From an uncultured Eubacteriaceae bacterium (GTDB lineage Bacteria; Bacillota; Clostridia; Lachnospirales; CAG-274), in contig CAMVJD010000006.1 in the NCBI GenBank assembly GCA_947167715.1, positions 1 to 64,000 on the forward strand: a DNA stretch of 64,000 nucleotides, in the 5' to 3' direction. Positions 29,767-55,870 of the stretch are shown here, one piece after another (within the stretch, counting starts at the first letter, position 1; every line of letters starts with the position of its first letter). The notes under the pieces were generated by a model. The model ran no database searches, was not told the DNA's origin, and saw only the letters and a list, made by a program, of their open reading frames with translations. The position numbers were made by a program, and so were the translations under genes.

Positions 29767-29812
29767 AAATATTTTCCTGTGTTAATAACAATTATTCAAA
29801 GTTTAATAGATT

Positions 29813-30706: not shown

Positions 30707-30718
30707 ACGCAAACCTCC

Positions 30719-31273
30719 TTAAAACTTGAATGTTTCCTTGATGCCTTTCCAAAGCTTGTCCTTTTCGGAAAGAATAGGCTCCATACCATCTGGAATAGGC
30801 CAATCTATACCAATATCAGGATCATTCCAAAGAACGCCGCCCTCATCACCGGGATGATAGAAGTCGGTACACTTGTAAACAAATTCAGCCTCATCGCTAA
30901 GCACAACAAAACCATGTGCAAACCCCTCGGAAATATAGAATTGCTTTTTGTTATCGGCACTTAATTCAACGCCAAACCATTTGCCGTATGTTTTGGAGTT
31001 TGCTCTTAAATCCACAGCCACATCAAAAACTGTACCTCTTACAACCCTGACAAGCTTGCCCTGAGGGAACTCTTTCTGAAAATGAAGTCCTCGTAAAACA
31101 CCCTTAGTACTCATAGATTGATTGTCCTGTACAAAAACCATATCAAGACCTTCCTCATGAAAATCATTCTGGTTGTAAGTTTCCATAAAATAGCCCCTGT
31201 TATCACCAAAAACAGACGGTTCTATAACATAAAGTCCCTCTATATCACATTTTGTTACTTTTATCTTGCTCAT
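30719..31273 (-). CDS. rmlC: dTDP-4-dehydrorhamnose 3,5-epimerase
   Basis: Cupin-fold epimerase that inverts C3 and C5 of dTDP-4-keto-6-deoxyglucose. At 184 residues it is standard, with NQSMSTKGVLRGLHFQ (catalytic His near residue 63), FDVAVDLRANS (near 83), EGFAHGFVVLSDEAEFVYKCTDFY (catalytic Asp/Tyr region) and the C-terminal LSEKDK. It overlaps rmlD by four bases. Confidence 0.96.
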   Translation of the reverse strand: MSKIKVTKCDIEGLYVIEPSVFGDNRGYFMETYNQNDFHEEGLDMVFVQDNQSMSTKGVLRGLHFQKEFPQGKLVRVVRGTVFDVAVDLRANSKTYGKWFGVELSADNKKQFYISEGFAHGFVVLSDEAEFVYKCTDFYHPGDEGGVLWNDPDIGIDWPIPDGMEPILSEKDKLWKGIKETFKF

Positions 31274-32184: not shown

Positions 32185-32188
32185 ATTA

Positions 32189-33208: not shown

Positions 33209-33264
33209 TTTTTAGTTCCTTTCGCCATAATTAATAAAACCCATTAATGCAGCCACCATTTTAT

Positions 33265-37359: not shown

Positions 37360-37378
37360 TCTTGTACCTCAATTTTCA

Positions 37379-38599: not shown

Positions 38600-38808
38600 T
38601 TTATAAATTATCCTTTCAATTTCATGGAGTATCTTCTTAAAGATTTCAAAGTCATGAGAGTAAAAATTATGTTTACTATATTATAAACATTTTTCATTTA
38701 TGTATAATACTCAACAATTATGAAGTATGGTTTTCAGCTATAGTTAGTTCACAAAACAATCAAATACACAATATCATAGGTGATTTTTTCATATATGAAA
38801 TTATAATT

Positions 38809-39321
38809 TTATACTTCCAATCGCATTCGCGTTCGCTTTAAAACATATTCATCAAAGGTACAAATTTTTTTTGCAGGGTTTCCGCCAACAACAGAATTTT
38901 CTGGAACGTCCTTGGTTACGACTGCACCTGCTGCTACTATTGCGTTTGGGCCAATTTTTACTCCGCCCATAATTATAGCATGAGCCCCTATAAAACAATT
39001 GTCGAAAATCTCGATATGTTTGCGTAGATATGCGAATTGACCGTGCTTTCTTACTAGTTCTGGTATATTGTTAAACAAATGATTCATAACATCATGATCG
39101 CAAAAATATACTTCTGTTGCTATATTTACATTATTATGTATAAAAATCATGTTGGGTTCTGCTGGCAGTTTTTTTGGATACCAATAGCAATTTTCACCAA
39201 ATAGCCCGAATATTTCGCAATTTTTAATATATTCTGCACGGTTAACTCCGCCTTTAAAAGCTAACATTGTAAGCATAACGTACTTTCTGTCTTTTTTCAA
39301 TTTTCGGATTAGCCCATTCAT
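38809..39321 (-). CDS. Left-handed beta-helix O-acetyltransferase
   Basis: A 170-residue hexapeptide-repeat acyltransferase. The C-terminal half has the repeat coil FDNCFIGAHAIIMGGVKIGP and AIVAAGAVVTKDVPENSVVGGNPAKKI, the standard acetyl-CoA-binding end of this family, and HNNVNIATEVYFCDHDVM holds the catalytic His region. It likely acetylates a sugar of the polysaccharide. Confidence 0.88.
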   Translation of the reverse strand: MNGLIRKLKKDRKYVMLTMLAFKGGVNRAEYIKNCEIFGLFGENCYWYPKKLPAEPNMIFIHNNVNIATEVYFCDHDVMNHLFNNIPELVRKHGQFAYLRKHIEIFDNCFIGAHAIIMGGVKIGPNAIVAAGAVVTKDVPENSVVGGNPAKKICTFDEYVLKRTRMRLEV

Positions 39322-39418
39322 TATTTGTTATCTTCCTTTTGTAGAATTATATCATTAAATAAATATTACTTTTTAAAGATGAATATCTCCAATTTTATCT
39401 AAACCCCATCGTTCTATT

Positions 39419-40084
39419 CTAGTTAATAAAGTTCAAAAAAAATTTATCTTCTAACATCAAACACAAGCAATGATAAACAGGTAAATGCAATTCCTGAATC
39501 ATATAAGTCTCCGTTTCGGGAACCTTTACGCATACATCCGCTGCCTGTGACAATTTACTTTTCTTTTGCCCCGTTAGGCCTATAACTTTCATGCCTTTAC
39601 TCTTTGCTACTGTTGCCGCAAAGAGTATATTTTTACTGTTTCCCGATGTCGAGATACCAAGGAAAACATCATTTTTATTACCAAAGCCGTTTACTTGTTG
39701 CGCAAAACACAGAAGCGGCTCACAGTCATTCATATAAGCTGTTGTCAGCGCAGGATGACCGTCAAGAGCTATCGTCGGAAGTGCGCCCTGAAGTTTTTCC
39801 GCAAGAATTGTTCCCAGTTCTTCGTCAACTTCCTTGAGTTTCTTTGCAAACTCATCACTTGTTTTTCTTGGCAGTTTAAAACCCTTCATCAGTTCTCCGA
39901 CTATATGTTCCGCATCAGCAGCAGAACCGCCATTACCCGCAACAAGCAACTTACCGCCGTTTTCATAGCATTCCTCAAGCACAAGATAAGCATTTATGAT
40001 ATCATCTTTGCATACTTCAAGCTGAGGATATCTTTTTATAAGTAAATCAATGTGCTTATTCAATTTGGTATCAAGCGTTTTCAT
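39419..40084 (-). CDS. gmhA: Sedoheptulose 7-phosphate (phosphoheptose) isomerase
   Basis: SIS-domain enzyme converting sedoheptulose 7-phosphate to D-glycero-D-manno-heptose 7-phosphate. The 221 residues contain GNGGSAADAEHIVGELMKGF (near 50-69), FLGISTSGNSKNI (near 140) and the C-terminal EQEL-like ETYMIQELHLPVYHCLC. The ATG at 40082-40084 has GGAGAG upstream; the frame opens four codons earlier. It carries an insertion of ~20 residues (near 72-95) common in GmhA. Next to hddC-gmhB and hddA, it completes the GDP-heptose pathway. Confidence 0.94.
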   Translation of the reverse strand: MKTLDTKLNKHIDLLIKRYPQLEVCKDDIINAYLVLEECYENGGKLLVAGNGGSAADAEHIVGELMKGFKLPRKTSDEFAKKLKEVDEELGTILAEKLQGALPTIALDGHPALTTAYMNDCEPLLCFAQQVNGFGNKNDVFLGISTSGNSKNILFAATVAKSKGMKVIGLTGQKKSKLSQAADVCVKVPETETYMIQELHLPVYHCLCLMLEDKFFLNFIN

Positions 40085-40096
40085 AATTCTCTCCAT

Positions 40097-41389
40097 TTAC
40101 TGCAATACAGTTTCCACAAAATCAATAAGTGAACTGCAGGACAAATTCTGTCCGAAATCTTCATTCTCGGTTATCAGAGCTGTTTTGCATCCGGCATTTT
40201 CGCCTGCCTTAACATCATTTTCACCATCACCGATCATCCATGATCGAGACAGATCGATATTAAAGTCCTTGGCAGCCTTTATAAGCATACCCGGCTTTGG
40301 TTTCCTGCACTCGCAATCAAATTTCAACTCTTTTATCTCGCCCTCATAGCCACTATGCGGATGATGCGGACAATAGTAGAGTGCATCAACGTAAGCACCA
40401 TCAAAACCGAGAAGAGTTTCCATTTTGTTATGTATCTCAGTCAACTCATCTACTGTGACTTCGCCTCTTGCAATAACCGGTTGATTTGTTACAACAACCG
40501 CGAGATAACCGCTCTGGTTTATCTTTTTTATTGCCTCTGAAACTCCGTCAAGCAGTTCAAAATCATCTATATTTCTTAAAAACCCAACATATTTGTTTAT
40601 CGTACCATCGCGGTCGATAAACACAGCTTTTTGTTTGTTTACAAGGTTTTTATCCTTGACAACACCATTTTCATAATCACGGCTTACTGCCGCAAATCTG
40701 TCGGGAGTGCCCATATCCTTCACATATTCGGGACTGTCATAAACAAACATTTTGCCTGTACCGGCAAGCGGTTTAAGCAGCTGTCTGTCTAAATCTATCT
40801 TCGGTGTATTTATTGTCACATCCAAAATTCTGGGTGACAATATATGCAGACCTGCATTTACTCTGTTCTTATAGAACTTGGGGCGAGCATCCTCTTTTGT
40901 AAGCCACTTTTCGACAGCACCTTTTTTATCTGCAATTATTAAACCGCTATCATAAGGATGACTGTTGGGGTGAGTAAATAAAGTCACCAAACCATCGTGG
41001 TTTCTGTGAAATTCTACGAAACGGTTAAAGTCTATATCAAACACCGAATCGGCATTCAAAAGCAGAAAATCTTCCGTAAGCTTGTCCTTTAAACGGAATA
41101 GTGCCCCTGCATTTCCAAGCGGTACCTTTTCCTCAAAGTATTCTATATTTACACCGAATGGTTTATTGGTAACAGGCGAGATACCCGATCCATCACCGAA
41201 ATAATCCATGATTATATGACCCAAATGACTTACCGTTATGATAATATCGGTAAAACCTTGATCTCTCAAGCATTCAATTTCATGTTCAAGTACAGGCTTA
41301 CCGCATATTTTTATCATCGGTTTGGGAATATCGCTTGCAACGGAGGAAATGCGAGTGCCTTTGCCTCCTGCCATAATAACTGTTTTCAT
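40097..41389 (-). CDS. Fused heptose-1-phosphate guanylyltransferase and heptose-1,7-bisphosphatase
   Basis: A 430-residue two-domain protein. Residues 1-235 form a nucleotidyltransferase like HddC (AGGKGTRI near 7-14, PKPMIKICGKPVLEHEIE near 23-40, LLNADSVFDIDF near 108). Residues 248-430 are a HAD-IIIA phosphatase like GmhB (VFIDRDGTINKYVG near 250-263 with the Asp nucleophile, VVVTNQPVIARGEV, the zinc loop CPHHPHSGYEGEIKELKFDCECRKPKPGM in overlapping parts, and SWMIGDGENDVKAGENAG). It should do two non-consecutive steps of GDP-D-glycero-alpha-D-manno-heptose synthesis. The start overlaps hddA by four bases. Confidence 0.92.
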   Translation of the reverse strand: MKTVIMAGGKGTRISSVASDIPKPMIKICGKPVLEHEIECLRDQGFTDIIITVSHLGHIIMDYFGDGSGISPVTNKPFGVNIEYFEEKVPLGNAGALFRLKDKLTEDFLLLNADSVFDIDFNRFVEFHRNHDGLVTLFTHPNSHPYDSGLIIADKKGAVEKWLTKEDARPKFYKNRVNAGLHILSPRILDVTINTPKIDLDRQLLKPLAGTGKMFVYDSPEYVKDMGTPDRFAAVSRDYENGVVKDKNLVNKQKAVFIDRDGTINKYVGFLRNIDDFELLDGVSEAIKKINQSGYLAVVVTNQPVIARGEVTVDELTEIHNKMETLLGFDGAYVDALYYCPHHPHSGYEGEIKELKFDCECRKPKPGMLIKAAKDFNIDLSRSWMIGDGENDVKAGENAGCKTALITENEDFGQNLSCSSLIDFVETVLQ

Positions 41390-42399
41390 AACTGAACTTC
41401 CTCAACCGGAACATAATCTTCGGGAGTGTAGTGAATCACCCTTGTTCCGCCGTTTTCAAATTCAAATGGTATGTAAAGCAGGTCTTTAAAAGCCTCAAAC
41501 ATAGCTTTGCGATTTTCGGGCTTAACATAGAACAGCAGAAATCCGCCGCCTCCTGCGCCCAAAAGTTTGCCGCCTAAAGCACCCGCTTTTATTCCTTTTT
41601 CATAAAGCGCATCAATCCCATCGGTAGAGACCGCCTTGCCAGTCTGTCGTTTTAACTTCCATGTATGGTCAAGCATACGACCAAACTCATCCAAATCGGA
41701 ATACTTGTCCGTCAGAATTTCTTCCGCTGTACCGACAAGCTCGTACATTTCACGCAGTTGTTTGCTTTTATCTTGCTTTGTCGCGTTATTAGCTTTCTGC
41801 ACATCCGATGAAAAACGAGTAAATCCCGTGAAGAACATCATAAGATTGTTGTTAAGCTCTCGTTTTCTTTCCGGCGATATAACAATCGGCAAAACCTCAT
41901 AACCATCAGCATCAAAGTTTATTCTGTTCAGGCCGCCATAAGCTGCGGCAATCTGATCCTGCCATCCTCCGGATTCGTTGCATAACACTCGTTCGAGATA
42001 AATAGCTTCATCAGCAAGTTTTTTCTTGTCAGCGTATTTGCCTTTTAATGCATAAAAAGCATTAAGCATACCAACAGCAAATGAGGAACTTGTACCAAGA
42101 CCGGAACGAGCAGGAAGATCCGCTTCATAAGTAAGTCTTATTTCATGCATATCCAACTGCTTCATTGCATTCCTTATTGCCGGATGTTGAATATCATCTA
42201 CACTTGTCACTCGTTCCGTTTTTGAATATGATAACTCCGTAGAATAATCAAAAAAACGAGGTAAATGTCGTACATTTACATAGCAATATTTGTCAAAGGT
42301 CGTGGATAAAACCGCACCTTTGTTTTCTTTAAAATAGTCTTCCATATCTGTTCCGCCGCCAAAGAATGACATACGGAATGGGGTTTTTGTTATAATCAT
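41386..42399 (-). CDS. hddA: D-glycero-D-manno-heptose 7-phosphate 1-kinase (GHMP kinase)
   Basis: GHMP-family sugar kinase, 337 residues, with RMSFFGGGTDMEDYF near residues 8-22, the ATP loop LPARSGLGTSSSFAVGMLNA (near 94-113) and the C-terminal GGKLLGAGGGGFLLFY (near 275-290). In this context the substrate is D-glycero-alpha-D-manno-heptose 7-phosphate. It begins four bases before the capsule-synthesis transferase stop and overlaps the fused gene. Confidence 0.93.
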   Translation of the reverse strand: MIITKTPFRMSFFGGGTDMEDYFKENKGAVLSTTFDKYCYVNVRHLPRFFDYSTELSYSKTERVTSVDDIQHPAIRNAMKQLDMHEIRLTYEADLPARSGLGTSSSFAVGMLNAFYALKGKYADKKKLADEAIYLERVLCNESGGWQDQIAAAYGGLNRINFDADGYEVLPIVISPERKRELNNNLMMFFTGFTRFSSDVQKANNATKQDKSKQLREMYELVGTAEEILTDKYSDLDEFGRMLDHTWKLKRQTGKAVSTDGIDALYEKGIKAGALGGKLLGAGGGGFLLFYVKPENRKAMFEAFKDLLYIPFEFENGGTRVIHYTPEDYVPVEEVQL

Positions 42400-42402
42400 T
42401 TG

Positions 42403-43350
42403 TCACTCCTTGATTATTGCATTATAATATGTGTTTTTTTGTTTTAAATGCTCTTCATTAAATTTGTAAGTTAGTTTATGAATAGGCGTTTGAGCTGCGA
42501 TTATTTTCCACACACCTTCATCATACTTTTCAAACAATCTTAGAAGCAATATATGTGGCAATTCATTACTAAACGGTACAACATTATCCCATTTTTCAGG
42601 ATAGGCTTCAATTGCAAGTTGAAAAAAATCATGAATAAGAAAATAATCCACCATTTTTTTGTTATCCTTCCAATATTCATAAAGCAAAGCCAATGTAAGC
42701 TTCAAAATACAATTTTCCTTTTTAGAAGTTATATACCAACTGGATATACATTTAGCATGTCCGTCTAATCCGGGCTTTAATGTCTGAAACAAAAACAAAT
42801 CGGAATCAATCATATAGTCATATGGTCTTGATGTACAAAAAATTGTTGCGTCCATCCATGTACCGCCGTATTTTATTAACAATTCTAAACGAAGTAAATC
42901 TGACATATGAGTCTTTGTAATTATTCCTGCATCAATTTTTTTTTGAATATAAGACGGAAACTGAACATAGTTTTTGTAATTATCTTCTGTTATCAAAACA
43001 ATTTCCCTATCAGTTATATTTTCACAAACTGATTTATAACATTTTTGAACAATCTCCGGAGCGTTTTCAATGCCTTGAAACCAGCATATCCATATTTTTC
43101 TCTTGGTTTCGTTTTTTATATCTTCAGATTTATTTTCTTCTACAAATGCGGATATAAATTTACTATATTTTTTTCTTAATTTTTTTAACAATTTGTTTCC
43201 AACAGCTAATCTTAAGATTTCTAAAGATTTTTTATCATATCCAAGTGACAGAAACATAAATAATGCATATATAAACACATGTCCTTGAAAATATTGTCTT
43301 AAAATTTCTCTTCCATTAACTTTTTTAAAAATCGTAATAAATTTTTTCAT
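42403..43350 (-). CDS. Capsular polysaccharide synthesis glycosyltransferase (GT32-like)
   Basis: A 315-residue protein of the capsular polysaccharide synthesis/GT32-like type: IWICWFQGIENAPEIVQKCYKSV (near 85-107), the DxD-like region SDLLRLELLIKYGGTWMDATIF (near 140-161) and the C-terminal YKFNEEH. The TW-x-D element is the metal-binding site of the family. I use the ATG at 43348-43350 (GGAG at 8 bases); the frame opens at a TTG five codons upstream. Confidence 0.88.
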   Translation of the reverse strand: MKKFITIFKKVNGREILRQYFQGHVFIYALFMFLSLGYDKKSLEILRLAVGNKLLKKLRKKYSKFISAFVEENKSEDIKNETKRKIWICWFQGIENAPEIVQKCYKSVCENITDREIVLITEDNYKNYVQFPSYIQKKIDAGIITKTHMSDLLRLELLIKYGGTWMDATIFCTSRPYDYMIDSDLFLFQTLKPGLDGHAKCISSWYITSKKENCILKLTLALLYEYWKDNKKMVDYFLIHDFFQLAIEAYPEKWDNVVPFSNELPHILLLRLFEKYDEGVWKIIAAQTPIHKLTYKFNEEHLKQKNTYYNAIIKE

Positions 43351-43407
43351 TGCTACACTCCACAAACATCACATATACTAATACCATTACTGCCTATATC
43401 ATGCGAA

Positions 43408-44745
43408 CTATAGTGTTATTATATCTTTCCTATTATTAAAGTCTTCAATTATTTTTACAATCGCACTTGAAACTTGCTCTGATATGTATCGATTATTTTT
43501 TCTTGATTCAATAGCTTTAGCAAATGAAACTATTTCATATCGTATTCCTTCTCCGTCAAGTTGATAAAAGAAACGCCTATTTTCCGCGGAATCTTCAAAA
43601 CGTAATTCAAAATAGTCAGTTTTCCACCAGGGAGCTGGCACATAAATATAACCTTTTGTTCCTGTTATTACCAATTCGCCTTCTGCTTTTGCTGCTTTTG
43701 CAACTTTGATTGAAGCAACACTTCCCGGATATGTAAAGTCTATTTTGGTAAATGCATCAATATTTGCTTCTTCATCTAGAAATTTTGTCGTAATTACTTT
43801 CTTATTGTAGTTAACTCCCAAAATCTGAAAAACGGGAAGTAATGCTACTGGTGCCCATCCACACATGCTGTTCCATTTGGTAGAAAGATCCACTCCTTCA
43901 GCTGCAATACCATCTCTAAGGCTTGTACACACGCTATCAACTGATATGACATCACCTATACTTCCTGTTTTAGCTAATAAAACCAGTCTCTCATAGGCTG
44001 TAGAATAGGCTGTTTTGATTGCATCCATTAATATCAAATTCTTTTCCGCGGCTATTTGATATAGCTCTAAACATTGTTCTTGACTAAATGCGATAGGTGA
44101 TTCGCAAAGTACGTGTTTTCCGGCTAAAAGTGCTTTCTTTACATCTTGATAATGTTTTTCTGGTTTAGATACAACGTATACTGCATCAACTCTTTCAAGA
44201 AGAATGTCAATTTTATCGGTTACTAATAAGTTCTCATTTTCTGTTTTTATATCTGCTTGAGATGTACAAATCCCAACAATCTCAACTCCATTAACATATT
44301 TTGCTTCATTAATAAACTTTGTTTTAAAAACCGCATTTCCTATCAAGCCTATGTTTAATTTTCGTTGTTCAGCTCTTACTTCCGAACTGGAAATCCCTTC
44401 AGTTCTAGGCAAATAAATAACATTGCAGTATTCATTTAAATAATCAAACTTTCCTTTCCAATCTGAACCAATAGCAAATATGTCTACTCCAAACTTTCGT
44501 ATATCATCGATCTTCTGACCGTCATATTCTTCTACAACTATTTCATCTACGAGACCGGTTTCTTTTACCGCTCTGATTCTATCCATCAAGGGCTGAGTAT
44601 TATTAATTTTCCCTCTGGTTTTGTCATAATCATCACTGGTTACACCGACAATTAAATAATCTCCTAAGGCTTTTGCGCGCTCAAGAAGTCTTATATGTCC
44701 ATAATGTAATAAATCGTATGTACCGTATGTAATAACCTTTGTCAC
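43408..44745 (-). CDS. TagD-like cytidylyltransferase fused to a Gfo/Idh/MocA-type oxidoreductase
   Basis: A 445-residue fusion. Residues 1-130 match glycerol-3-phosphate cytidylyltransferases closely: TYGTYDLLHYGHIRLLERAK (with the HxGH element, near 6-25), SDWKGKFDYL and VIYLPRTEGISSSEVR. Residues 133-445 are an NAD(P)-dependent Gfo/Idh/MocA oxidoreductase: a Rossmann fold starting NIGLIGNAVFKTKFI (with a weakened glycine motif), AVYVVSKPEKHYQDVKKALLAGKHVLCESP, and LMDAIKTAYS around the catalytic lysine. GTG start with GGAGG 8 bases upstream. It probably supplies a CDP-activated alcohol for the LicD protein encoded nearby; the substrate is unknown. Confidence 0.9.
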   Translation of the reverse strand: MTKVITYGTYDLLHYGHIRLLERAKALGDYLIVGVTSDDYDKTRGKINNTQPLMDRIRAVKETGLVDEIVVEEYDGQKIDDIRKFGVDIFAIGSDWKGKFDYLNEYCNVIYLPRTEGISSSEVRAEQRKLNIGLIGNAVFKTKFINEAKYVNGVEIVGICTSQADIKTENENLLVTDKIDILLERVDAVYVVSKPEKHYQDVKKALLAGKHVLCESPIAFSQEQCLELYQIAAEKNLILMDAIKTAYSTAYERLVLLAKTGSIGDVISVDSVCTSLRDGIAAEGVDLSTKWNSMCGWAPVALLPVFQILGVNYNKKVITTKFLDEEANIDAFTKIDFTYPGSVASIKVAKAAKAEGELVITGTKGYIYVPAPWWKTDYFELRFEDSAENRRFFYQLDGEGIRYEIVSFAKAIESRKNNRYISEQVSSAIVKIIEDFNNRKDIITL

Positions 44746-44766
44746 GCATTTCACCTCCGTATGTTC

Positions 44767-45840
44767 TTATATGATCCTTCGTTTTTGCAAGTCCTTAAAT
44801 GCATTGATCAAAGTAGTGTTGTTCTCTTTCGTTAATGCCCCTATATGACCTACTCTGAAAACCTTATCAGCCATTTCACCCCCATTGGGACATATCCATA
44901 TTCCATATTCATCTTTTAATACAGTAAAAATATCATACGCAGAAGCCGTCAGCGGATGTATTGCAGTTACTGCATTTGACATGGACTCCGAAAAAAGTTC
45001 AAACGGTAAATCTTTTATCTTGCTCCTGAAATCTTTTGCTATATCGGAGATCTTTTTGATTTCACTTTCAACACCGCCAGCTTCTTCGATTTCTTTCAAC
45101 CGTAAATTTATTTGACGCAAAATACCCACAGCAGGTGTAAACGGTGTTTGTCCACGTTCTCCATTTTTCAGTGCGTTTTTAAGATCCAAATACATACAAC
45201 CGCAATTATGGGCATTGACCCTTTTAACGGCTTTTTCAGATAAAACAATAACAGAGATGCCGGGAGGACAAGCCAAAGCCTTTTGTGAACCCGTAAGCAT
45301 TATATCAACACCAAGTTCCTTCATATTAAACTCATCAGCTAAAAACGAACTTATTGCATCCACTACCAAAAAGATATTATTTCTCCTGCAAAATGCACTT
45401 ATCATATCAATATCATAATGAACGCCCGTAGATGTTTCGTGTACATTCACTAAAAAACCCGTATAGCCTGCGTTTTCATATTTTTCAAGCATTTCGGGTC
45501 TTAATGTTTTTCCTGCTTCAATTGTGATCTCCGTATACGGGATATTATGTATTTGGCACAATTCCACAAAACGATGACCAAAGCTTCCTCCGTTTACTAC
45601 AAGCACTTTATCGGTTTCGTCATAAACATTTATTATAGACGCTTCCATAGAAGCCGTTCCCGAACCGGTAAGAAATACCACCCTTGCATTTTCATCTGCT
45701 TTTGCAAATTTCTTCATCAGCCTTTCGTTTTCAAACATAACTTCCGAGAATTCGGGTGTTCTAAAATAAGGCACCTGTTCCGCGCCCATAGAGCAAACGG
45801 TTTCGCTTGACATAACAGGTCCTACTGTAAAATTAAGCAT
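44767..45840 (-). CDS. Class V aminotransferase (AGXT/PhnW-like)
   Basis: A 357-residue PLP enzyme of fold type I class [14 protein letters not shown] begins the protein, [12 protein letters not shown] (near 60-71) and [14 protein letters not shown] (near 131-144) bind substrate and PLP, DAISSF holds the PLP aspartate, and the PLP lysine is in [16 protein letters not shown] (near 197). The family includes alanine-glyoxylate and 2-aminoethylphosphonate transaminases. Its position between the cytidylyltransferase fusion and the SDR suggests that it aminates a small aldehyde used as a glycan substituent; that is inference. Confidence 0.87.
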
Positions 45841-45853
45841 CTTTATCCTCTCC

Positions 45854-46669
45854 TCAATATCTTACATCGTCATAAGTTGTAACCGCTGAACCGCCTGTGA
45901 TCTTTACGACATCTCCAACGATCATACGTCCCATTGAAGAAGTCAAGAACACCGCTAAATTTGCAATTTCCTGCGGTAAAATATAACGTCCGGCAGGAAC
46001 ACCTCCATGATGAAGGCTATCTCCTTCTTTTTTATGAAGCATAGGTGTAAATGTAGGTCCTGGCGCAATTCCGTTTACAACAATTCCATGTACTATTAAC
46101 TTTTTCGCCATTCCAAGTGTCAATCCGCTCATTCCAAGTTTGGATAACATATAAGGATCAATGGAAGGTCTATAAGATGAAGAAGAACACAAATTAAGAA
46201 TATTACCTTGAATTTTATGTTCAACCATATAATTAGATACGATTTGTGAAATAAAGTACTGTGCCTTCAGATTGATATTCATTAAATTGTTCCATTCTTC
46301 ATCGGTAACTGTTCCAAATTTTGTTCCCTGATAAATACCGGCATTATTCACTAAGATATCAAGCGTCTCGTTCCCTAAATATTCAAGTACGTTTTTTAGC
46401 ACATTTTCAAAATTGTTAATATCAGCAAGATCCATTATAACTCCGAAAATGTTTTTTTCTTTTTCGGGATGCATTTCCTTCAACTTGCAGACAGCATTAT
46501 CAAGTTTTTTTGTGCTTCTGCTTGTAATAACAATATTCCGGATGTCGGCACATAAAAAAGTATTTGCCATTTCAAATCCAATGCCGCTTGTACCACCTGT
46601 AATCAACGCATTGCGATTGGAAAGCACTTTCTGATTCCAAACAGGAATAATAATATGTGTGTCATTCAT
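45854..46669 (-). CDS. Short-chain dehydrogenase/reductase
   Basis: A 271-residue classical [17 protein letters not shown] cofactor loop (near 24-37), NNAGIYQG (near 109), the catalytic serine in [12 protein letters not shown] and the [11 protein letters not shown] Tyr-xxx-Lys (near 170), then [10 protein letters not shown]. The ATG at 46667-46669 is chosen because GAGGAG in the end of the preceding gene is 10 bases upstream. It probably reduces or oxidises an intermediate of the CDP-substituent set. Confidence 0.87.
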
Positions 46670-46678
46670 TTTTACCAA

Positions 46679-48370
46679 TCACTCCTCAACTAACGGTCTG
46701 ATACACTTTTCAAGTTCTCTGTAAACCGATAAGGTGAATTCTCCGTCTTCTTTCATTTCAGTAAATGTTTCAAGTACAACAGGTCTGCTGTGGTCAGTCG
46801 ATACAAATATCGGAAGCACATTTGACAGTTCTTCTTTATTGAAAGCACTCATATATTCATATCCCATTGATTCGACCCACCCCTTGACTGACCTGTCATG
46901 TGAACATCCGATATGCTGGTCTATAGTAGGAATTGCATTGCTGTCTGGCATAATATGGAATTCCGCTCCACCGCCGTTATTCAGCACTAAGATACGGACA
47001 TTATTTCTTCGGTGTTTAATCGCTGCTGCATTCATGCCATAGAAGAAACTAAGGTCACCAATAAGCAGAAATGCAAGCTGATCTGTGACCGCAGCCTGTC
47101 CCATAAATGTAGGTAAACATCCATCGATACCAAACGAATTAACATTACTGAAACAGGTTATTGACGGATTCAACTTAAAGAACTGCATCAACCGTGTCGA
47201 ATTCAGAATAGCTGTGTGCAGAATTGAATTATTCGGAATAACCTTGCTAAATTCCTGTGTAACATAGAAATTTGTAAACGGCATTTCCGGCATTACAAGA
47301 TAAGCCTCAAGCTGTTTCCACTGATTAAGGTAAGCATCAGAATAATCACCATCGGCAGCCTCTGTCAGTGAACTGAAAAAATGCAACGGCGTACATTCAA
47401 ATAATGCGCTTTGGCACTTAAACACATCGCGCACAATTCCTTCAGCCTCAATAGACCAATGCTCGATTTTCTCTTTATGAGCTCTGAACAAGTCCTTCAA
47501 TCTTTCTTGAAAATTTGCACCAAATGAAATTATAATGTCAGGTACATATTTTGCAACGGTTTTGGAATTCAGTGCTTTGCCGACACCCTCTGCAAAAATC
47601 ATTTCATCACATCTGAAATTGGATAGATTGTCCGCAAGTATCGGAATATGATAAGTCGAACAGAACTCTTTGATTGCAAACTGTGTATTTTGAGGCAGAG
47701 GTATTGACTGTCCCATGACAATAATTGTCTTTCTGCCATTGAGCTTTTCTGCGTATTCTCTGAATTTTTCAGCATTGTTTTGATCAATGTAATCAATCAC
47801 ATTTACACCGTCAACAATATCCTTATGAACACTTTCTTCAACCAGTTTGTTCATAGCTCCAACTAACGGAATATTGATATGAACCGGTCCATCCTGATGC
47901 TGGCGCATTGCAATCAAAGCCTCATTGATTAGACGTTGACAATACCACACATCATCTTCATCCTTAATTAATGGAAGGGTAACAGATTTTTTTACAACAC
48001 TACCGAAAATAGCGGGTTGGTCAATTTTCTGTGTCTCTATCTGATTCAGAAGATACGGACTTCGGTCAAATGTAAGAACCGCAATCGGTGAATGCGAATA
48101 AAACGCTTCCGTTACTCCGGTCAGATAATTGGAAGCAGCAGTTCCGCTTGTGCAGGCAATTGCTACAGGCACATTCAGTTGCTGGCTGATTCCAAGCGCA
48201 AAGAAAGCTGCACTTCTTTCATCAATTACTGAATAACACTGAAACCTTTCATCCGTTTCAATCGCACTTACAAAAGGGATATTACGTGCACCGGAAGAAA
48301 GCACAATGTGTTTGATTCCGTATTCTGCCATTAAAGATATCAGTATACTGTTTGTCACATATTTAGGCAT
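46679..48370 (-). CDS. MenD-like thiamine diphosphate enzyme
   Basis: A 563-residue ThDP enzyme that most resembles MenD (SEPHCHC synthase): LSSGARNIPFVSAIE (near 24-38), the cofactor-activating Glu in VIDERSAAFFALG (near 50-62), CTSGTAASNYLTGV (near 73-86), and the ThDP/metal region LLIGDLSFFYGMNAAAI with LVLNNGGGAEF (near 440-475). No other menaquinone genes are present, and it lies in the polysaccharide operon, so it probably performs a related decarboxylation/carboligation for a sugar substituent rather than vitamin K synthesis. It overlaps the pyruvyl transferase gene by one base. Confidence 0.88.
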   Translation of the reverse strand: MPKYVTNSILISLMAEYGIKHIVLSSGARNIPFVSAIETDERFQCYSVIDERSAAFFALGISQQLNVPVAIACTSGTAASNYLTGVTEAFYSHSPIAVLTFDRSPYLLNQIETQKIDQPAIFGSVVKKSVTLPLIKDEDDVWYCQRLINEALIAMRQHQDGPVHINIPLVGAMNKLVEESVHKDIVDGVNVIDYIDQNNAEKFREYAEKLNGRKTIIVMGQSIPLPQNTQFAIKEFCSTYHIPILADNLSNFRCDEMIFAEGVGKALNSKTVAKYVPDIIISFGANFQERLKDLFRAHKEKIEHWSIEAEGIVRDVFKCQSALFECTPLHFFSSLTEAADGDYSDAYLNQWKQLEAYLVMPEMPFTNFYVTQEFSKVIPNNSILHTAILNSTRLMQFFKLNPSITCFSNVNSFGIDGCLPTFMGQAAVTDQLAFLLIGDLSFFYGMNAAAIKHRRNNVRILVLNNGGGAEFHIMPDSNAIPTIDQHIGCSHDRSVKGWVESMGYEYMSAFNKEELSNVLPIFVSTDHSRPVVLETFTEMKEDGEFTLSVYRELEKCIRPLVEE

Positions 48371-49494
48371 TATTGTTTCTCCTTTTGTAAAAGTGCAAGT
48401 TCCATCTTAAGAAACTGAAGTGATTTTTCCCTTGCTGTAGCGATATTTCTGTGAACAGTTTCATAATCTATCTCATTACGGAATGATTCTGTTCCGTTGA
48501 CTAACATCCGATCAGACAAGTCAAACAGACCAAGAAGTTCTCCAATTTTAGTATCACATTGCTCGCGCGAGAATATAACAAACGGTCTGCAATACTGTAC
48601 GCTGAATATCATACCGTGAAACGAATTTGTCACCACATATTCTGAATGCTTTACCAACGAAAGGAATTCCTCCACGCCGGCTTCATAGAACATCTGATGT
48701 CCGCGTTCTGCATTAGTAGCACGGAGGCTAATCTCAATTATTTGCCAACCGTTCTTGTCAGCAATCTTTTCTGCGTATGCTTCCATTTGCGGTGAGTAAC
48801 GCCTTGAATACAAAAGCAAGTATTTATCCTGCTCCTGCTTTTCGGCAGTAATTGTACTATATTCATCTGCCGTTAGCAATAAAGTCGGATCAATAACTCT
48901 CTGCACGGGAACATTTGTATGCTCTTTAACATAGGGCACCATTTGTTCCTCTCTTAAACCAAAGGCCTTGAAATTCTGCAATCGCTCGTTTAATATTTTA
49001 CAGTTTTCTTCTGTCAAAGTAGGATCTCCGAAACTTGCGGCATACGCAACCGAACGGTCTTTCATACAGTTGTAATTTGCGTAATATCCGTCATCAAACC
49101 CGAATTCATCCATACAAAAAATCGTATCGCTGCCGCAAACAAAGCCATCTATTTTTTCATCCCAAACGATATCGTCAAAATTATTCGATGTATATTTTTT
49201 CTTTGTCTTAGTGAATTTTGTATTATAAAAATCGTTGAATTTATAATAATTTTCACGAATCGCAGGCATTGTCAGTTCGCACATCTTGCGTGATTCTTCA
49301 TCCTTATCCCACATATTATCAAATGGATTTAAAGGATCTTTATCTGCTAAAACATCCGGACAGTAATCTATCAAAATAGGATGGTAATTTCCAATTTTTT
49401 TTATAGTTTGATGTAAAGCCCATGATTGTAATGCTGAACCATAATTTGTAAAATTGCCATAAATATTATAACTTACTATTCCGATGGTTTTCAT
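48370..49494 (-). CDS. Polysaccharide pyruvyl transferase family protein
   Basis: A 374-residue protein with the family layout: N-terminal GIVSYNIYGNFTNYGSALQS (near 4-23), VCGSDTIF near 118, SVAYAASFG near 147, VIDPTLLLTADEY (near 200), and TNSFHGMIFSVQYCRPFVIF (near 290-309), the PEP-binding-type SFHG motif. It should transfer a pyruvate ketal from PEP to a sugar of the repeat unit. Confidence 0.9.
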   Translation of the reverse strand: MKTIGIVSYNIYGNFTNYGSALQSWALHQTIKKIGNYHPILIDYCPDVLADKDPLNPFDNMWDKDEESRKMCELTMPAIRENYYKFNDFYNTKFTKTKKKYTSNNFDDIVWDEKIDGFVCGSDTIFCMDEFGFDDGYYANYNCMKDRSVAYAASFGDPTLTEENCKILNERLQNFKAFGLREEQMVPYVKEHTNVPVQRVIDPTLLLTADEYSTITAEKQEQDKYLLLYSRRYSPQMEAYAEKIADKNGWQIIEISLRATNAERGHQMFYEAGVEEFLSLVKHSEYVVTNSFHGMIFSVQYCRPFVIFSREQCDTKIGELLGLFDLSDRMLVNGTESFRNEIDYETVHRNIATAREKSLQFLKMELALLQKEKQ

Positions 49495-49520
49495 ATATCA
49501 AATACCTTTCTTAACCTTTA

Positions 49521-50351
49521 CTATCGCTTATAAATCTTGTAAAAATGTTGAGCCTTTCTATCCTTTTCCGGTGGTAGTTTCATATAATCTCCATATGAAG
49601 CATTTAATACTTCATGGTAATTTGTGGGAACTTTAAATTTTAAGTTTTCGAAGGACATTTCCGAAACTGATTCAAATATCTTCCTCTTGTATATTACGAT
49701 TTTGGCAACACTAGCCCATTGATTATTAGCAATATATTCACTATTATCAAAATCAAACTTGTTTTCATATTTTTTCAGTTTTTTCAAAAAGTAATCTTTT
49801 CCCATAATCTTTGCATAAATAAACACAAAAAATTTGAAAAGCATTTTCAAATTACCTTTTGTATTATCCCTAGCAAAACTTTTCCTTGTTGATAAAAACA
49901 CTAACGATGCCAAAGCGGCTGTCTTTTTTTGATAACTATAAGCAGTCTTATAGTCATTCCCCAATCCGTCTAACACATAAATATCAACAAAAGTTCCCAT
50001 CCCACATTCTTTTTCATTCTCCGGAACCATTCTAAATCTAACGTCACTTATGCGTGATAAACCATAAGGATAGTCTTTATTGATATCATAATCAAACAAT
50101 TTAAAAGGATATAATTTATCCGCATTGTTTCGGAAATATCTTATAAACTTATCATAATCTTTTCTGGGCATCATGATATCTAAATCATCATCCCAAGGAA
50201 TAAAACCTTTATGGCGTACGGCACCAATTAACGTGCCATATGCTAAATAATATGTAAACCCTTCTGAATCACATATTTCTGCTATCTTTTTCAGTATTTC
50301 TAAAGATGACATTTGTATCTCTTTTAAACTTAGCTCTATATCATTACTCAC
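49521..50351 (-). CDS. LicD-family phosphotransferase
   Basis: A 276-residue LicD/FKTN-type nucleotidyltransferase-fold protein: LAYGTLIGAVRHKGFIPWDDDLDIMM (in overlapping parts, near 35-60) holds the active-site DDDLD aspartates, followed by ISDVRFR, MGTFVDIYVLDGLG (near 120) and the C-terminal YGDYMKLPPEKDR. LicD proteins move phosphocholine, phosphoethanolamine-like or glycerophosphate groups from CDP donors onto glycans. The donor may come from the TagD-like fusion six genes away. Confidence 0.93.
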   Translation of the reverse strand: MSNDIELSLKEIQMSSLEILKKIAEICDSEGFTYYLAYGTLIGAVRHKGFIPWDDDLDIMMPRKDYDKFIRYFRNNADKLYPFKLFDYDINKDYPYGLSRISDVRFRMVPENEKECGMGTFVDIYVLDGLGNDYKTAYSYQKKTAALASLVFLSTRKSFARDNTKGNLKMLFKFFVFIYAKIMGKDYFLKKLKKYENKFDFDNSEYIANNQWASVAKIVIYKRKIFESVSEMSFENLKFKVPTNYHEVLNASYGDYMKLPPEKDRKAQHFYKIYKR

Positions 50352-50370
50352 AGATTTGCCTCCTACTTTA

Positions 50371-51402
50371 CTACTTGAATTTTTCGAATATTATTCCAGC
50401 AAATTTTTTGTATATCTCAATAAAAAAAACTAATCCAACTGTTATAAATAAAAAAGCTATAATAAAAGAAATCCACCCATATCCAAATAAATACAGTAAT
50501 TTAAACTTTTCTACTGCACGAAATATCACCATTTGCGCTAAATACATTTCTAAACTAATTCCACTTAAATACTTCATTACTCGGTTACATAAAATATGAC
50601 TTTCAACACTTATCGCATAACACAACCACGGTATAAACAATACCAAATTTTTAAATGCTATAAATTCAATATTAAAAAATTTTGATGGTGTAAGCAAAAA
50701 AAGGATGTATAGAAGGATGCACAGTATCGGAAATGCATACCTAAATCTATTAACAATCAGTTTAATTGTATTTCTATAAAGATATATTAATCCGCCGATT
50801 AAAAACAAAGGTGTGCAAAACAAAAAGTTATGTCTGAAAGCAAAATCTTCTATAACAAATTTTTCCGAAAAAAAGTATATACTACAAAACAAATTAAGCA
50901 CCAATGAAATCATAAACGAAAACCATGCCCTACGTTTTGTACTGCATAGAAAACAAAAAAACGGAAAAAGCATATAAAATAAAAAAATAACCCCAAGTGT
51001 CCAGCAAACACCTATAACATCAGGTTGATTATTTGGTAACAAGCCGTAAACAAGAGTCAACTCCGTAATACCCTCTATAACATGATCGAATGAATGATAA
51101 ACAATAACATCAATCAAAATTAAAAGTGAAAAAAAGGGCAATATCTTTTTATATCTTTTTAAATAAAATGTATCCAGATCTATTTTGCAATTTTTAATTT
51201 TTTCGTAGTAACCACAAAACATCCCAAATCCGCTTATCATCAAAAAAAGATATACAAAATTTGTCCATGATGCCACAACCGTTTCATATAAAAAGCCGGT
51301 TATTTTATAAGCCGTGTTTGCTTTTATATGCATTGCAATAATCCCCAAGCAACTAAGCGCTCTAAGACCATCAAGATTATTATATCTTTCTTTAGTACCC
51401 AT
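50371..51402 (-). CDS. Acyltransferase family 3 membrane protein
   Basis: A 343-residue integral membrane acyltransferase with about ten helices. It begins YNNLDGLRALSCLGIIAMHI, the conserved R-x(10)-H arrangement of the acyltransferase-3 fold, and has CWTLGVIFLFYMLFPFFCFL near 142. It probably O-acetylates the polysaccharide. I start it at the ATG 51400-51402, which overlaps the previous gene's stop context (TAAAATG), indicating coupling. Confidence 0.9.
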   Translation of the reverse strand: MGTKERYNNLDGLRALSCLGIIAMHIKANTAYKITGFLYETVVASWTNFVYLFLMISGFGMFCGYYEKIKNCKIDLDTFYLKRYKKILPFFSLLILIDVIVYHSFDHVIEGITELTLVYGLLPNNQPDVIGVCWTLGVIFLFYMLFPFFCFLCSTKRRAWFSFMISLVLNLFCSIYFFSEKFVIEDFAFRHNFLFCTPLFLIGGLIYLYRNTIKLIVNRFRYAFPILCILLYILFLLTPSKFFNIEFIAFKNLVLFIPWLCYAISVESHILCNRVMKYLSGISLEMYLAQMVIFRAVEKFKLLYLFGYGWISFIIAFLFITVGLVFFIEIYKKFAGIIFEKFK

Positions 51403-51403
51403 T

Positions 51404-52603
51404 TTACACACCACATAATACAGCATATTCATCAGCTATGAATTGCCAAGAATATGCCTTTTCTATTCTTTCTTTTGCTTTTAGCCCGTTTTCTACGGCT
51501 TCAGATAAAGCAATGTTGTCTGTTTTATCAATAAGATCTGCAAGGTTTCCATCCGATTTATTCCAGTATAACGCTGCATTCTCGCCAACCTCATGATTAA
51601 ACCCAACATCAAGCAACAAATTTAAATCAGTACTTCCCAATGCCTCTAACAAACTCGGATTTGTTCCTCCAACTTCGTGTCCATGTAAATAACCATAAGC
51701 ATTTTCTCTTATCTTCTTAAGAAGCTCTTTATCATAAACTGTTCCTACAAATTTAATTCTTGGATCACTCTTAAAACCAAGCTTTGCTTCGAGATCATCC
51801 ATAAGTTTATCGTTTGCTGTCGTTATAATAGCAAAGTCCTTCTTACTATTGCTTTTCATAAACTCCCTTATCATTATCTCGTAGTTGTTTTCCGGAACAA
51901 ACCTTCCTACCACAAGATAGTATTCTTTGGGTTTTAAGCCCTTTTCGGAGTACCATTTAAGCAAGATTTCATCATCATCGGCAAGTTTGCTTTTTTCAAC
52001 ATCTGCACCATAAGCAATATATGTTGTCTTTGGTGAATACTTTTTATATTCTTCTTTTATGTACTTTTCTATGTTTATACTGTCACAAACAAGCAAATCG
52101 GAATGTTTTACCATTCCTTCTTCGCTTATCTTCCAATACTTTCTGACTGGAGCAGACCATTTTGCGCGCATCCATTCATGTCCATCAGGGTTAACAAAAA
52201 GCTTGCCGCCCAGCTTTACTATTTTATTTTTTAGAGTGCCAATGAACGGACCGATACGGCAGGCAAGCACATAAAAAATAGGATGTTCTATCTTATTTTT
52301 CTCACAATATTTAATACAATACTTCAATGCAGCAATATCGTAATAAATTGCCTGTGCAGAGCCTATGTTTGGCACTTTCACTTTAAAACAGTGAGCGTTA
52401 TGATATTCAAACTCTGTATCACTGATCTTAGTGACACCTTCAAGCTTGTTTTCATCCATAAAACCATCACCATTGCCTTTACATGCAATATGGTATTTTA
52501 TGTTTTTATTATTTTGATGATACTCTGTCAGCTTGTCCACAAAAGTCTCGTAACCGCCATAATTACCCAAACCTTTTGCTCCGACAATAAATACATGCTG
52601 CAT
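51404..52603 (-). CDS. DUF1972-type rhamnosyltransferase
   Basis: A 399-residue GT-B glycosyltransferase of the DUF1972/Cps2T group, usually adding rhamnose to the first lipid-linked sugar. Visible: FIVGAKGLGNYGGYETFVDKL (near 5-25), NPDGHEWMRAKW (near 137), VVGRFVPENNYEIMIREF (near 230) and YLHGHEVGGTNPSLLEAL (near 310-327). The rml genes in the locus supply the dTDP-rhamnose donor. Confidence 0.92.
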   Translation of the reverse strand: MQHVFIVGAKGLGNYGGYETFVDKLTEYHQNNKNIKYHIACKGNGDGFMDENKLEGVTKISDTEFEYHNAHCFKVKVPNIGSAQAIYYDIAALKYCIKYCEKNKIEHPIFYVLACRIGPFIGTLKNKIVKLGGKLFVNPDGHEWMRAKWSAPVRKYWKISEEGMVKHSDLLVCDSINIEKYIKEEYKKYSPKTTYIAYGADVEKSKLADDDEILLKWYSEKGLKPKEYYLVVGRFVPENNYEIMIREFMKSNSKKDFAIITTANDKLMDDLEAKLGFKSDPRIKFVGTVYDKELLKKIRENAYGYLHGHEVGGTNPSLLEALGSTDLNLLLDVGFNHEVGENAALYWNKSDGNLADLIDKTDNIALSEAVENGLKAKERIEKAYSWQFIADEYAVLCGV

Positions 52604-52621
52604 TGTGTTCGACCTTCCGTG

Positions 52622-53776
52622 TTATTTTTTGTTATTTTCTTTGAGAGCTCGTTTTAAGCGTTGCATACAAGCTTTAAATCCCATCATTTTTACATATTGC
52701 AAAAGCTGATACAGCCATGCAAACGGTCTCAAAAACCTATATTTTGTGCAGAGTTTCCAATTCAAAAGTCCATTTCGTTGCAAAAGGACAAATACATCTC
52801 TTGTTCCGGAAACAAGAATTATGTTATTATTCTCACCTTTGCCTGAATCAAAATACTCCGATGCTTTATTACCGAAGTTACCCATGTGCGAAATATGTTC
52901 GTAAAACTCATCACACACCTTGTCAGAAGCAACTGTACACCACTTAAGTTCCGGATTTAATCCGAAATTTTTTTGACAGACCTTTGTGACGATACATGAT
53001 AGTTTCAAAAGATTTCTTTGTTCAAACAAGGATTTGTACGTTTTGTTCCAGTTTTCGTCATCAATGTATTTATCTACGAACAGCATCCAGTCTATTATTT
53101 GCCTAAAGCCAAGACCACCTAACATGTGATGCTTAATGTGAAGCAACAATACCATGCCATTGTATTCGGGCGAAAACATTGGGAAAGTACAATCGTCAAC
53201 AGTAGCATCTATTCGATATTCCAATCCTTTATCAAAAAAAATGCGTAAATCTTCGTCATTACCATCAACACCACTTATCCTGTTGTGTAATTCAAAGACA
53301 ACACCATTCTTATGAAATTCAGCCTGATGAAATGTCTCATCGTACGGCTCTGCAAGCGAATAGCCGTTATCCTTTAATAAATCAAAAGCTTGACTAAACT
53401 GCTCTTTTTTTACATAGAAATCTATATCCCCATATGCCCTTAATTCCGGTCTGGGATAGTTAACACTCGCTGCTGTTCCTTTGATTATCACAAAAGAAAT
53501 ACTATGCGTATTCAACAGACTCACGAGTTTTTTTTGCTCTTCAAGCATTCTGTAATAAGTTACAATTTGCTTTAAAATGCTGTTTTTCCAGATCTCGCCA
53601 ACCGGCAGCGGCGGAAAAACCGTTTTTTCAAAATAGCTTGCTGCCAACCCCGATATAGATTGACTTACCATTTCTTTGTAAACTTCATCCCAATTCACAA
53701 ATTCATTGAATTTTACGACTTTTCCAAATGAATAAGTCAATACCAAACTATTAATTACATCATATTTAGAAATCAT
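52622..53776 (-). CDS. Nucleotidyltransferase-fold protein (NTP_transf_5)
   Basis: A 384-residue protein of the uncharacterised nucleotidyltransferase family found at the head of many polysaccharide loci. The fold core is FVIIKGTAASVNYPRPELRAYGDIDFYV (read in overlapping parts, near 94-121; Gly-Thr and D-x-D). Helical N-terminus and a HHMLGG/ RQIIDWMLFVD region follow. Its role is unknown. It is the first gene of the polysaccharide operon, 90 bases downstream of the promoter. Confidence 0.85.
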   Translation of the reverse strand: MISKYDVINSLVLTYSFGKVVKFNEFVNWDEVYKEMVSQSISGLAASYFEKTVFPPLPVGEIWKNSILKQIVTYYRMLEEQKKLVSLLNTHSISFVIIKGTAASVNYPRPELRAYGDIDFYVKKEQFSQAFDLLKDNGYSLAEPYDETFHQAEFHKNGVVFELHNRISGVDGNDEDLRIFFDKGLEYRIDATVDDCTFPMFSPEYNGMVLLLHIKHHMLGGLGFRQIIDWMLFVDKYIDDENWNKTYKSLFEQRNLLKLSCIVTKVCQKNFGLNPELKWCTVASDKVCDEFYEHISHMGNFGNKASEYFDSGKGENNNIILVSGTRDVFVLLQRNGLLNWKLCTKYRFLRPFAWLYQLLQYVKMMGFKACMQRLKRALKENNKK

Positions 53777-53865
53777 CTTATCCGCTTCAAAATCTTTCTC
53801 AAAGTTTTACCCTTTACAATTTTTCATATGTGCCGAGTTATACTCTGTCGCATAAATTCCCTATT

Positions 53866-53894
53866 AGTATATACCATTTTTTGAAGTTTTACAA
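53866..53894 (-). promoter_or_regulatory. Promoter of the large polysaccharide operon
   Basis: TTGTAA (53889-53894), 17-bp spacer, TATACT (53866-53871) on the minus strand. It is separated from the first gene by one arm of the 15-bp inverted repeat. Confidence 0.78.
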
Positions 53895-54074
53895 GTATTT
53901 ATTTGATTTTCTGTGCTTAAAAATTTTTCCTGTTATTTTTCGCTAAACTGTACAAATTCAACAAATAACTTTAAAATTTTCTTGCAAAGGACGGTATTTA
54001 CGGCAGTTTCATTGCCTTTTGTTATTACCGTCATTTACTACCGTCAAAATTTATTTTGGAAAGGAATGGTTTTT

Positions 54075-55145
54075 ATGCCAAGAAGAGGCAGAAACATCTA
54101 CAAGAGAAAGGATAACCGTTGGGAAGCGAGGGTATATTTCAACAGCGGGAAAAAGTACAAATCCGTATATGGCAAAACCTACAAAGAAGCCGCAGAAAAA
54201 CAGGATAAACTGAGGCTTGAAATGGGTTCCTCAAATAATGCCGATCATCTTTTCAATACGATTGCAGAAAATTGGTATATCGACAAAAGTTTTACCGTCA
54301 AAGAGGGCACATTATTTTCGTATTCAACCAAGCTGAAAAAGCATATTTTGCCGTATTTTTCGGAAATATTGGTGTCAAAGCTGACAGAACAAATGCTCGC
54401 GGGATTTATAGCGACAAAACGTGCAGAAGGCTTATCGGACAAATACATATCGGATATGGTAATTATTATCAAATCAATATCCGCATGGGCACACAAAAGA
54501 TACGGAATAACCAATAAAATCGCTGATTTCAAAAACATCAAACTGACGGTAAAAGAACCTAAAATGCTTGATACCACAGAACAGAAAAAGTTACAGCAAC
54601 ACCTTTTGCAACAAGCTGATAGTGTTTCGCTCGGTGTGTTTTTGAATATGTTCACAGGGCTTCGTATAGGCGAAATGTGTGCGCTGAAATGGTCGGATAT
54701 TGACCTTGAAAGTGGCATTATCAGCGTAAACAAAAGCGTTCAGCGGCTTCCCAACAGCAAAACAGGCAAAACGGAAGTTAAAATCAGTAGACCAAAAACA
54801 GCCACATCGGTGCGTATGATACCGATGCCCCAATTTGTGTGCGATAGGCTCAAAAGCCTAAAACAAGCTGATAACTGCTATATTCTGTCAAGTACAGAAA
54901 AATTGATCGAGCCCCGTTCTTTTACAAATAAATTCAAGCGTATTCTTTCTGATGCAGGCGTATCTCCTGTAAAATATCACTCACTCCGTCATGTTTTTGC
55001 CACAAATTGTATGCAAAACCACTTTGACATAAAAACTTTAAGCGAAATATTGGGACATTCGAGCCCCAATATCACATTGAAAATGTATCTGCATTCTACT
55101 ATGGAACAGAAAAGAAACTGCATGAATAGGTTATCTCTTTTGTGA
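54075..55145 (+). CDS. Tyrosine recombinase/integrase
   Basis: A 356-residue phage-type integrase. An N-terminal AP2-like arm-binding segment (RRGRNIYKRKDNRWEARV and YKSVYGKTYKEA) precedes a SAM-like core-binding domain (near 65-165) and a catalytic domain with the first Arg in FTGLRIGEMCALKWSD (near 196), the H-x-x-R in YHSLRHVFATN (near 299), LGHSSPNITLKMY with the second His, and the nucleophile Tyr in MYLHST (near 339). The ATG at 54075 follows GGAAAGGAATGG. It lies inside the inverted-repeat pair and is divergent to the polysaccharide operon, so it is the prime candidate for the invertase. Two TGACGGTA copies lie just before its start and two beyond its stop. Confidence 0.94.
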   Translation: MPRRGRNIYKRKDNRWEARVYFNSGKKYKSVYGKTYKEAAEKQDKLRLEMGSSNNADHLFNTIAENWYIDKSFTVKEGTLFSYSTKLKKHILPYFSEILVSKLTEQMLAGFIATKRAEGLSDKYISDMVIIIKSISAWAHKRYGITNKIADFKNIKLTVKEPKMLDTTEQKKLQQHLLQQADSVSLGVFLNMFTGLRIGEMCALKWSDIDLESGIISVNKSVQRLPNSKTGKTEVKISRPKTATSVRMIPMPQFVCDRLKSLKQADNCYILSSTEKLIEPRSFTNKFKRILSDAGVSPVKYHSLRHVFATNCMQNHFDIKTLSEILGHSSPNITLKMYLHSTMEQKRNCMNRLSLL

Positions 55146-55290
55146 TTTATTACCGTCTTTGTTACCGTCAAAGATGTTTTGAAAATGGCTTAAACTCCGC
55201 GATTCAGAAACAAACCGCAAAGGGTAAAACTTTATGTAAAATAATGCTTATTAAGGGTATAGCAAAATTCGATGCTATACCCTGTTTTTA

Positions 55291-55856: not shown

Positions 55857-55870
55857 AATTGTGAGATTTG

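Follow-up and report, generated by a model that had tools for sequence, protein, structure and literature searches.

Known invertible switches

In the Hin system of Salmonella an outward promoter lies inside the invertible H segment, as it also does at the locus described here. The enzyme of this flagellar phase variation system turns with its switch, as it would in our case, and Hin is the named example of a recombinase located inside its own switch, a situation which is known but occasional (PMC5903667). An earlier note on the present DNA had pointed to Bacteroides for precedent; for a recombinase inside the flip unit this does not fit, and the Salmonella enzyme does (PMC5903667). Hin is, however, a serine recombinase, whereas the gene enclosed here codes for a tyrosine recombinase and so does not belong to the Hin-type invertases; the site anatomy, the polysaccharide cargo and the host group (Clostridia) are different as well.

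The invertible capsule promoters of Bacteroides fragilis (Mpi) are comparable in that inversions control polysaccharide loci, as proposed here (PMC5903667), but Mpi is one serine recombinase working on distant sites. Tyrosine-recombinase switches are known in Clostridia from the RecV system of Clostridioides difficile (cwpV, flgB; PMC5903667). One RecV serves several scattered switches, whereas here each cassette has its own enzyme and its own arm sequence. In gut Clostridia, inverton group 139 together with tyrosine invertase group 35 shows a nearby tyrosine recombinase and measured orientation shifts (PMC11892184). Coordinates are printed for two group 139 examples; these measure about 255 bp, too short to contain a recombinase gene (PMC11892184), and we have therefore rejected these invertons as being the same thing. 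In the cases checked, both for RecV and for group 139/group 35, the enzyme is located outside the switch or elsewhere, unlike the present one. The PsrA/CreX recombinase of the Streptococcus pneumoniae cod locus is a tyrosine recombinase within the locus which is rearranged through inverted repeats, as proposed here, but it swaps hsdS coding pieces and does not switch a promoter (PMC11709252). The present locus differs from these switches in having tyrosine recombinase, promoter and sites in one Clostridia unit; the self-carried recombinase as such is known from Hin.

Anatomy of the locus

The window is the whole stretch of 64,000 nucleotides which was analysed. The features of interest are the following.

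29023..34710, minus strand: second block with flippase and dTDP-rhamnose genes, beyond about 1.1 kb of apparently decayed sequence
36145..53776, minus strand: nearly gapless polysaccharide cluster, judged from its gene content (see below)
52622..53776, minus strand: head gene of the cluster, an NTP_transf_5 nucleotidyltransferase (Pfam, E 2.5e-38)
53801..53815, plus strand: putative left recombination site (arm), AAAG-TTTTACC-CTTT; exact inverted repeat with a centre of about 7 bp that is the same in both arms
53816..55218, no strand: segment of 1403 bp between the arms, predicted to invert; homologous cassettes are inverted at the same sites
53894-53866, minus strand: candidate outward, leftward sigma-70-type promoter, TTGTAA-17-TATACT (consensus scan 9/12; leftward bias in relatives)
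54022..54048, plus strand: putative arm-type integrase binding sites, two TACCGTCA repeats directly before the gene (CCGTCA enrichment)
54075..55145, plus strand: tyrosine recombinase, intact ORF of 356 aa (Pfam, catalytic motifs, nearest solved structure)
55147..55172, plus strand: putative arm-type sites after the gene, TACCGTC and TACCGTCA (CCGTCA enrichment)
55219..55233, minus strand: putative right recombination site, the same 15 bp in inverse orientation (exact inverted repeat)
55254..55283, plus strand: predicted intrinsic terminator just beyond the right arm (11-bp stem and T-run)

The sequence AAAGTTTTACCCTTT at 53801-53815 has its exact reverse complement at 55219-55233, and the homology ends sharply after 15 bp, a stretch of 31 columns being 77% complementary; the earlier note had described these perfect repeats around the recombinase gene correctly. 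Both arms have the half-sites AAAG and CTTT separated by 7 bp with an identical centre, which is the core-site layout of tyrosine recombinases, whose inverted half-sites flank an overlap of 6-8 bp shared by both partners, and the left arm has the wider half-sites CTCAAAG / CTTTACA. The arms are the sole exact copies in the 3.23-Mb genome, and two copies with one mismatch found elsewhere are both unpaired. A chance origin had been called very unlikely, which for the 15-mer alone was too strong: a perfect inverted pair less than 2 kb apart anywhere in 64 kb is not very rare, and the window holds two of them, the second being a short hairpin, so the arms by themselves are suggestive and not decisive. 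At the recombinase gene itself, in the 300 bp preceding it and the 200 bp following it, a perfect 15-bp inverted pair was obtained in 2 of 5000 shuffles, which is again suggestive and not decisive; it is the relatives that decide the question.

The recombinase consists of a Phage_int_SAM_3 and a Phage_integrase domain (Pfam; catalytic domain E 7.8e-25), and its N-terminus is weakly AP2-like (E 3.5e-4, which is under the Pfam cut-off). The catalytic motifs TGLRIGE, RPKTATS, HSLRH, LGHSS and KMYLHS are in place, starting at residues 194, 239, 302, 326 and 336, and the R, K, HxxR, H and Y of the tyrosine recombinases/phage integrases are all present in an alignment to Tn1549 Int, whose structure (6emy) is also the closest solved one. 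The ORF between the arms is intact. Four distant integrases in the same genome were inspected and no notable inverted repeat was found around any of them; nor was near-identical DNA found in plasmids.

It should be noted that the promoter had been presented as the only good one of the operon. Its 9/12 match equals the mean of shuffled sequences (9.0) and is among the weakest of the cassettes, and its quality is not established by the sequence alone; position and direction are what the relatives support. When 40 cassettes were scored for their best leftward sigma-70 match in the stretch from left arm to gene, the mean was 11.0/12 against 8.7 for shuffles (Wilcoxon p 6.6e-8), with a perfect match in many of them, whereas rightward matches were not above shuffles; the leftward match exceeded the rightward one in 36 of the 40. 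An outward promoter opposite to the recombinase is strongly conserved over the 40 cassettes. Because the match in the window is no better than shuffles, we infer activity of its promoter from place and direction. The arrangement is that of an inverton, with inverted repeats enclosing an outward promoter next to the target operon, the promoter match in the window being weak. Of 45 upstream regions, 28 contain the hexamer CCGTCA, where shuffles would give 0.2; downstream the count is 29 of 45 against an expected 0.25. These repeats are probably arm-type integrase binding sites.

The head gene of the cluster starts about 25 bp from the left arm. Further genes in 36145..53776 are DUF1972, acyltransferase, LicD, pyruvyl transferase, Caps_synth and glycosyltransferase genes, and heptose-nucleotide-type genes (GHMP kinase, NTP transferase/HAD and SIS), a content which by annotation is capsule-type. 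The operon had been given as 24 kb long. The co-directional block is real and nearly gapless from 36.1 to 53.8 kb, but at 34.7-35.8 kb it is broken before it continues from 34.7 down to 29.0 kb. Over about 1.1 kb the break (34711-35830) shows no convincing gene and probably consists of what is left of decayed genes. Because this apparently decayed sequence separates the two co-directional blocks, a single transcript reaching beyond 36 kb is only a candidate. To the right of the cassette lie the terminator and then convergent genes.

Conservation among relatives

Within the same family and order, homologues of about 32-56% identity were gathered. The arm survey covered the 46 homologous integrase genes whose flanks were long enough on either side, and an inverted repeat was accepted when it scored above all 60 shuffles. 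The earlier note had asked whether the arms are conserved in relatives that keep the recombinase: paired arms enclose the gene in 37 of the 46, a few of these being near-copies of each other, and no significant inverted repeat was seen around the remaining 9. The distances are stereotyped, mostly about 160-300 bp on the upstream side of the gene and 55-150 bp on its downstream side, and the segments are 1.2-1.7 kb long.

The arms match within a unit, where they also share the centre, and differ between units. Most consist of short half-sites, inverted about a centre of roughly 7 bp. In the branch of the window cassette, besides the window arms themselves, these read AAAG-TATTTCA-CTTT or GTTT in the paralogue from the same genome (read by hand) and CCTAAAG-TTACCCC-CTTTAGG in G031 and G010; in many other units they read TTCGTAAAA-7 bp-TTTTACGAA. 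When the centre length was fitted automatically, values from 5 to 9 bp were obtained, for the most part around one dyad axis, and "7 bp" is the most consistent layout by eye. Judged by these sequences, the arms are built as tyrosine-recombinase core sites are expected to be, and in the opposite way to transposon ends.

The tree places the pair of C3 and G014 as sister group to the window recombinase (99/93). The six cassettes marked as polysaccharide-linked all group on a single branch, separated from the marked mobile-element integrases with 100/100 support, and the unmarked L016 joins this branch. The closest cousins of the window cassette are located in glycosyltransferase clusters. The cassettes of G031 and G010 each stand between a pair of divergent polysaccharide operons, and in G031 the first genes of the two operons begin alike, as near-copies of one sugar transferase; because of this arrangement the cassette is read as an either/or selector in these genomes. 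In the window the right exit meets a terminator and convergent genes, so an on/off switch is the most likely function there.

Two loci show the divergent arrangement in detail (L055, G031 C3, 7606-10570; L056, G010 C14). The operons of L055 start with inverted near-copies of the sugar transferase gene; exact repeats reach 136 bp, and the similarity extends over several hundred bases.

Cassettes on other branches precede NRPS genes, genes for cohesin/dockerin or SdrD-like giant proteins, or FtsK/SpoIIIE-type genes. Named relatives are found on the Ruminococcus albus 7 plasmid pRUMAL02 and on Enterococcus gilvus pCR1A, where the cassette is located before a WxL cluster. The viral and phage collections contained distant relatives only (at most 37% identity), including one phage-labelled faecal scaffold with matching 24-bp arms.

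Inversion between homologous loci

Natural inversion of homologous cassettes at equivalent sites is seen in two pairs of loci. The first consists of the C3 cassette of the window's own genome (G000, L053) and a decayed cassette from another genus (G014 C98, L070), now without its right arm, which weakens this pair as evidence. The cassettes align plus/plus from the core site with 80% identity over 1273 bp, but the NTP_transf_5 head gene and its leader align plus/minus from the same site with 77% identity over 408 bp, the gene being located past the 3' end of the recombinase in L053 and on the promoter side in L070. Because the two alignments have opposite orientation and meet at the site, the loci are seen from the alignments to differ by inversion about the recombination site. 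In the second pair (G299 C48 and C6) the homologous flank is inverted exactly, from the right arm of one to the left arm of the other. The opposite orientation in related assemblies, for which the earlier note had suggested a search, is thus present with breakpoints at the arms.

The promoter points toward a drivable gene in L059, L070 and L089 and away from it in L062, L087, L091 and L100. Both orientations are found for homologous loci of different genomes and for paralogues; the assembly of the present strain shows one, and no flipped copy of the cassette was found elsewhere in it. Closely related orthologous cassettes (G220/G133/G334/G273 and G348/G368) have the same orientation throughout each set, and among the closely related orthologues of genus g78 no differences in orientation were found. 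Because the orthologous sets share one orientation, flipping may be rare or one state may be favoured.

Two other signals were considered. An initial "inversion" in the g78 flanks was discarded, as it came from a repeated gene family in direct orientation. Contig ends near several cassettes, taken as a sign of mixed orientation, are circumstantial, and the best case (G334 C16/C12) fits a nearby insertion difference instead, so this sign was set aside.

Proposed mechanism and alternative explanations

The locus is very probably a self-contained invertible promoter cassette with its own tyrosine recombinase, and most likely a heritable on/off switch for surface polysaccharide. The view of the earlier note that an invertible promoter switch stands at the head of the operon was largely right, as most relatives keep the arms, the outward promoter is conserved and turned cassettes occur. 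The model proposes that the tyrosine recombinase binds the two arms of 15 bp (AAAG-7 bp-CTTT) as its inverted core sites, probably together with the CCGTCA repeats flanking its gene, and inverts the 1.4-kb segment carrying this gene and the outward promoter. The assembled state would be ON, with the promoter pointing left, through the left arm, into the polysaccharide cluster, and the recombinase message ending at the terminator right of the cassette. In the inverted state, which would be OFF, the promoter would point right into that terminator (55254-55283) and the recombinase gene toward the polysaccharide cluster. The model assumes that the window recombinase acts on the window arms, that the strain flips the cassette and that expression of the cluster follows its orientation.

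The alternative that survives best, improbable as we find it, is a recently decayed or locked switch, in which the descendant of a flipping cassette is now fixed and its promoter has become an ordinary one. Such a fate is suggested by the G014 cassette, where the recombinase is broken, the right arm gone and the promoter fixed in the direction of the cluster, and by the closely related orthologues elsewhere which hold one orientation; in the window, however, the arms are still identical and the reading frame and catalytic motifs of the recombinase are intact. The decay in L070 (G014 C98, 8400-9670) comprises a recombinase with stops and truncation and the loss of the right arm, with the promoter side toward the NTP_transf_5 cluster, and this locus is possibly an example of a switch frozen in the ON position.

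Very unlikely is a small mobile element resembling an insertion sequence, the inverted repeats being transposon ends. The element would have a single recombinase gene bounded by inverted repeats, and the nearest solved relative is the integrase of the conjugative transposon Tn1549. Arms which vary between units and agree inside each unit are, however, the opposite of transposon ends; no near-identical copy exists in the genome, the outward promoter and the flanking operons are conserved, and homologous loci differ by inversion. With neither conserved terminal repeats nor multiple near-identical copies, we do not count the cassette as an insertion sequence.

Equally hard to credit is inversion of the segment by the neighbouring small serine recombinase (55871-56524) in place of the tyrosine recombinase. 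It has a low-score resemblance to the Mpi invertase family and lies about 640 bp from the right arm, but other surveyed cassettes keep the arms around the tyrosine recombinase, and the arm layout with its centre of about 7 bp fits this type of enzyme. The serine recombinase gene, which adjoins the cassette, is apparently intact and only weakly Mpi-like, and no inverted-repeat targets were seen near it.

That the 15-bp repeat is coincidental and the recombinase an unrelated phage or ICE remnant is the least credible reading, for although such a pair is not very rare in 64 kb, its position (2 of 5000 shuffles), the equivalent arms around most relatives and a sister cassette with the same AAAG-7-CTTT layout and a different centre speak against it, and the family survey contradicts it.

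Possible reach of the cassette family

Beyond the self-flipping cassette proposed for the window, we consider it rather probable that there is a large, apparently undescribed Clostridia family of portable self-flipping promoter cassettes of 1.2-1.7 kb (arm, outward promoter, integrase, arm), one branch acting as either/or selector between divergent polysaccharide operons and others standing before NRPS, giant surface-protein and secretion-type genes. A limited search of the open-access literature found no paper describing this family. In one inverton study the inverted regions overlapping coding sequences were dropped (PMC8748976), and because of this step pipelines of that kind would miss cassettes such as that of the window. 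A search rule demanding an integrase gene within matched arms should uncover switches overlooked by searches for short or intergenic invertons.

With recombinase, promoter and sites in one unit, the cassette would give gut-type Clostridia a compact design for phase variation that needs a single gene. It predicts that polysaccharide, NRPS and surface-protein loci differ between sister cells in many unstudied genomes, and the naturally varied pairs of recombinase and site offer material on how tyrosine recombinases choose their sites.

Some minor observations may be added. In three genomes (L060, L061 and L086) related cassettes stand before an NRPS-type cluster of two genes (about 1149 and 2700 aa), with the promoter facing away in all three. 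On pRUMAL02 of Ruminococcus albus 7 (L178, 3885-11321) the cassette-type integrase is located beside two more tyrosine recombinases and a run of three "recombinase family" genes. In the window the octamer TACCGTCA is present, on either strand, in 11 copies within 2.4 kb (54026-56438), six of which lie in or beside the two genes to the right, beyond the cassette; genome-wide there are 215 copies, about one per 15 kb.
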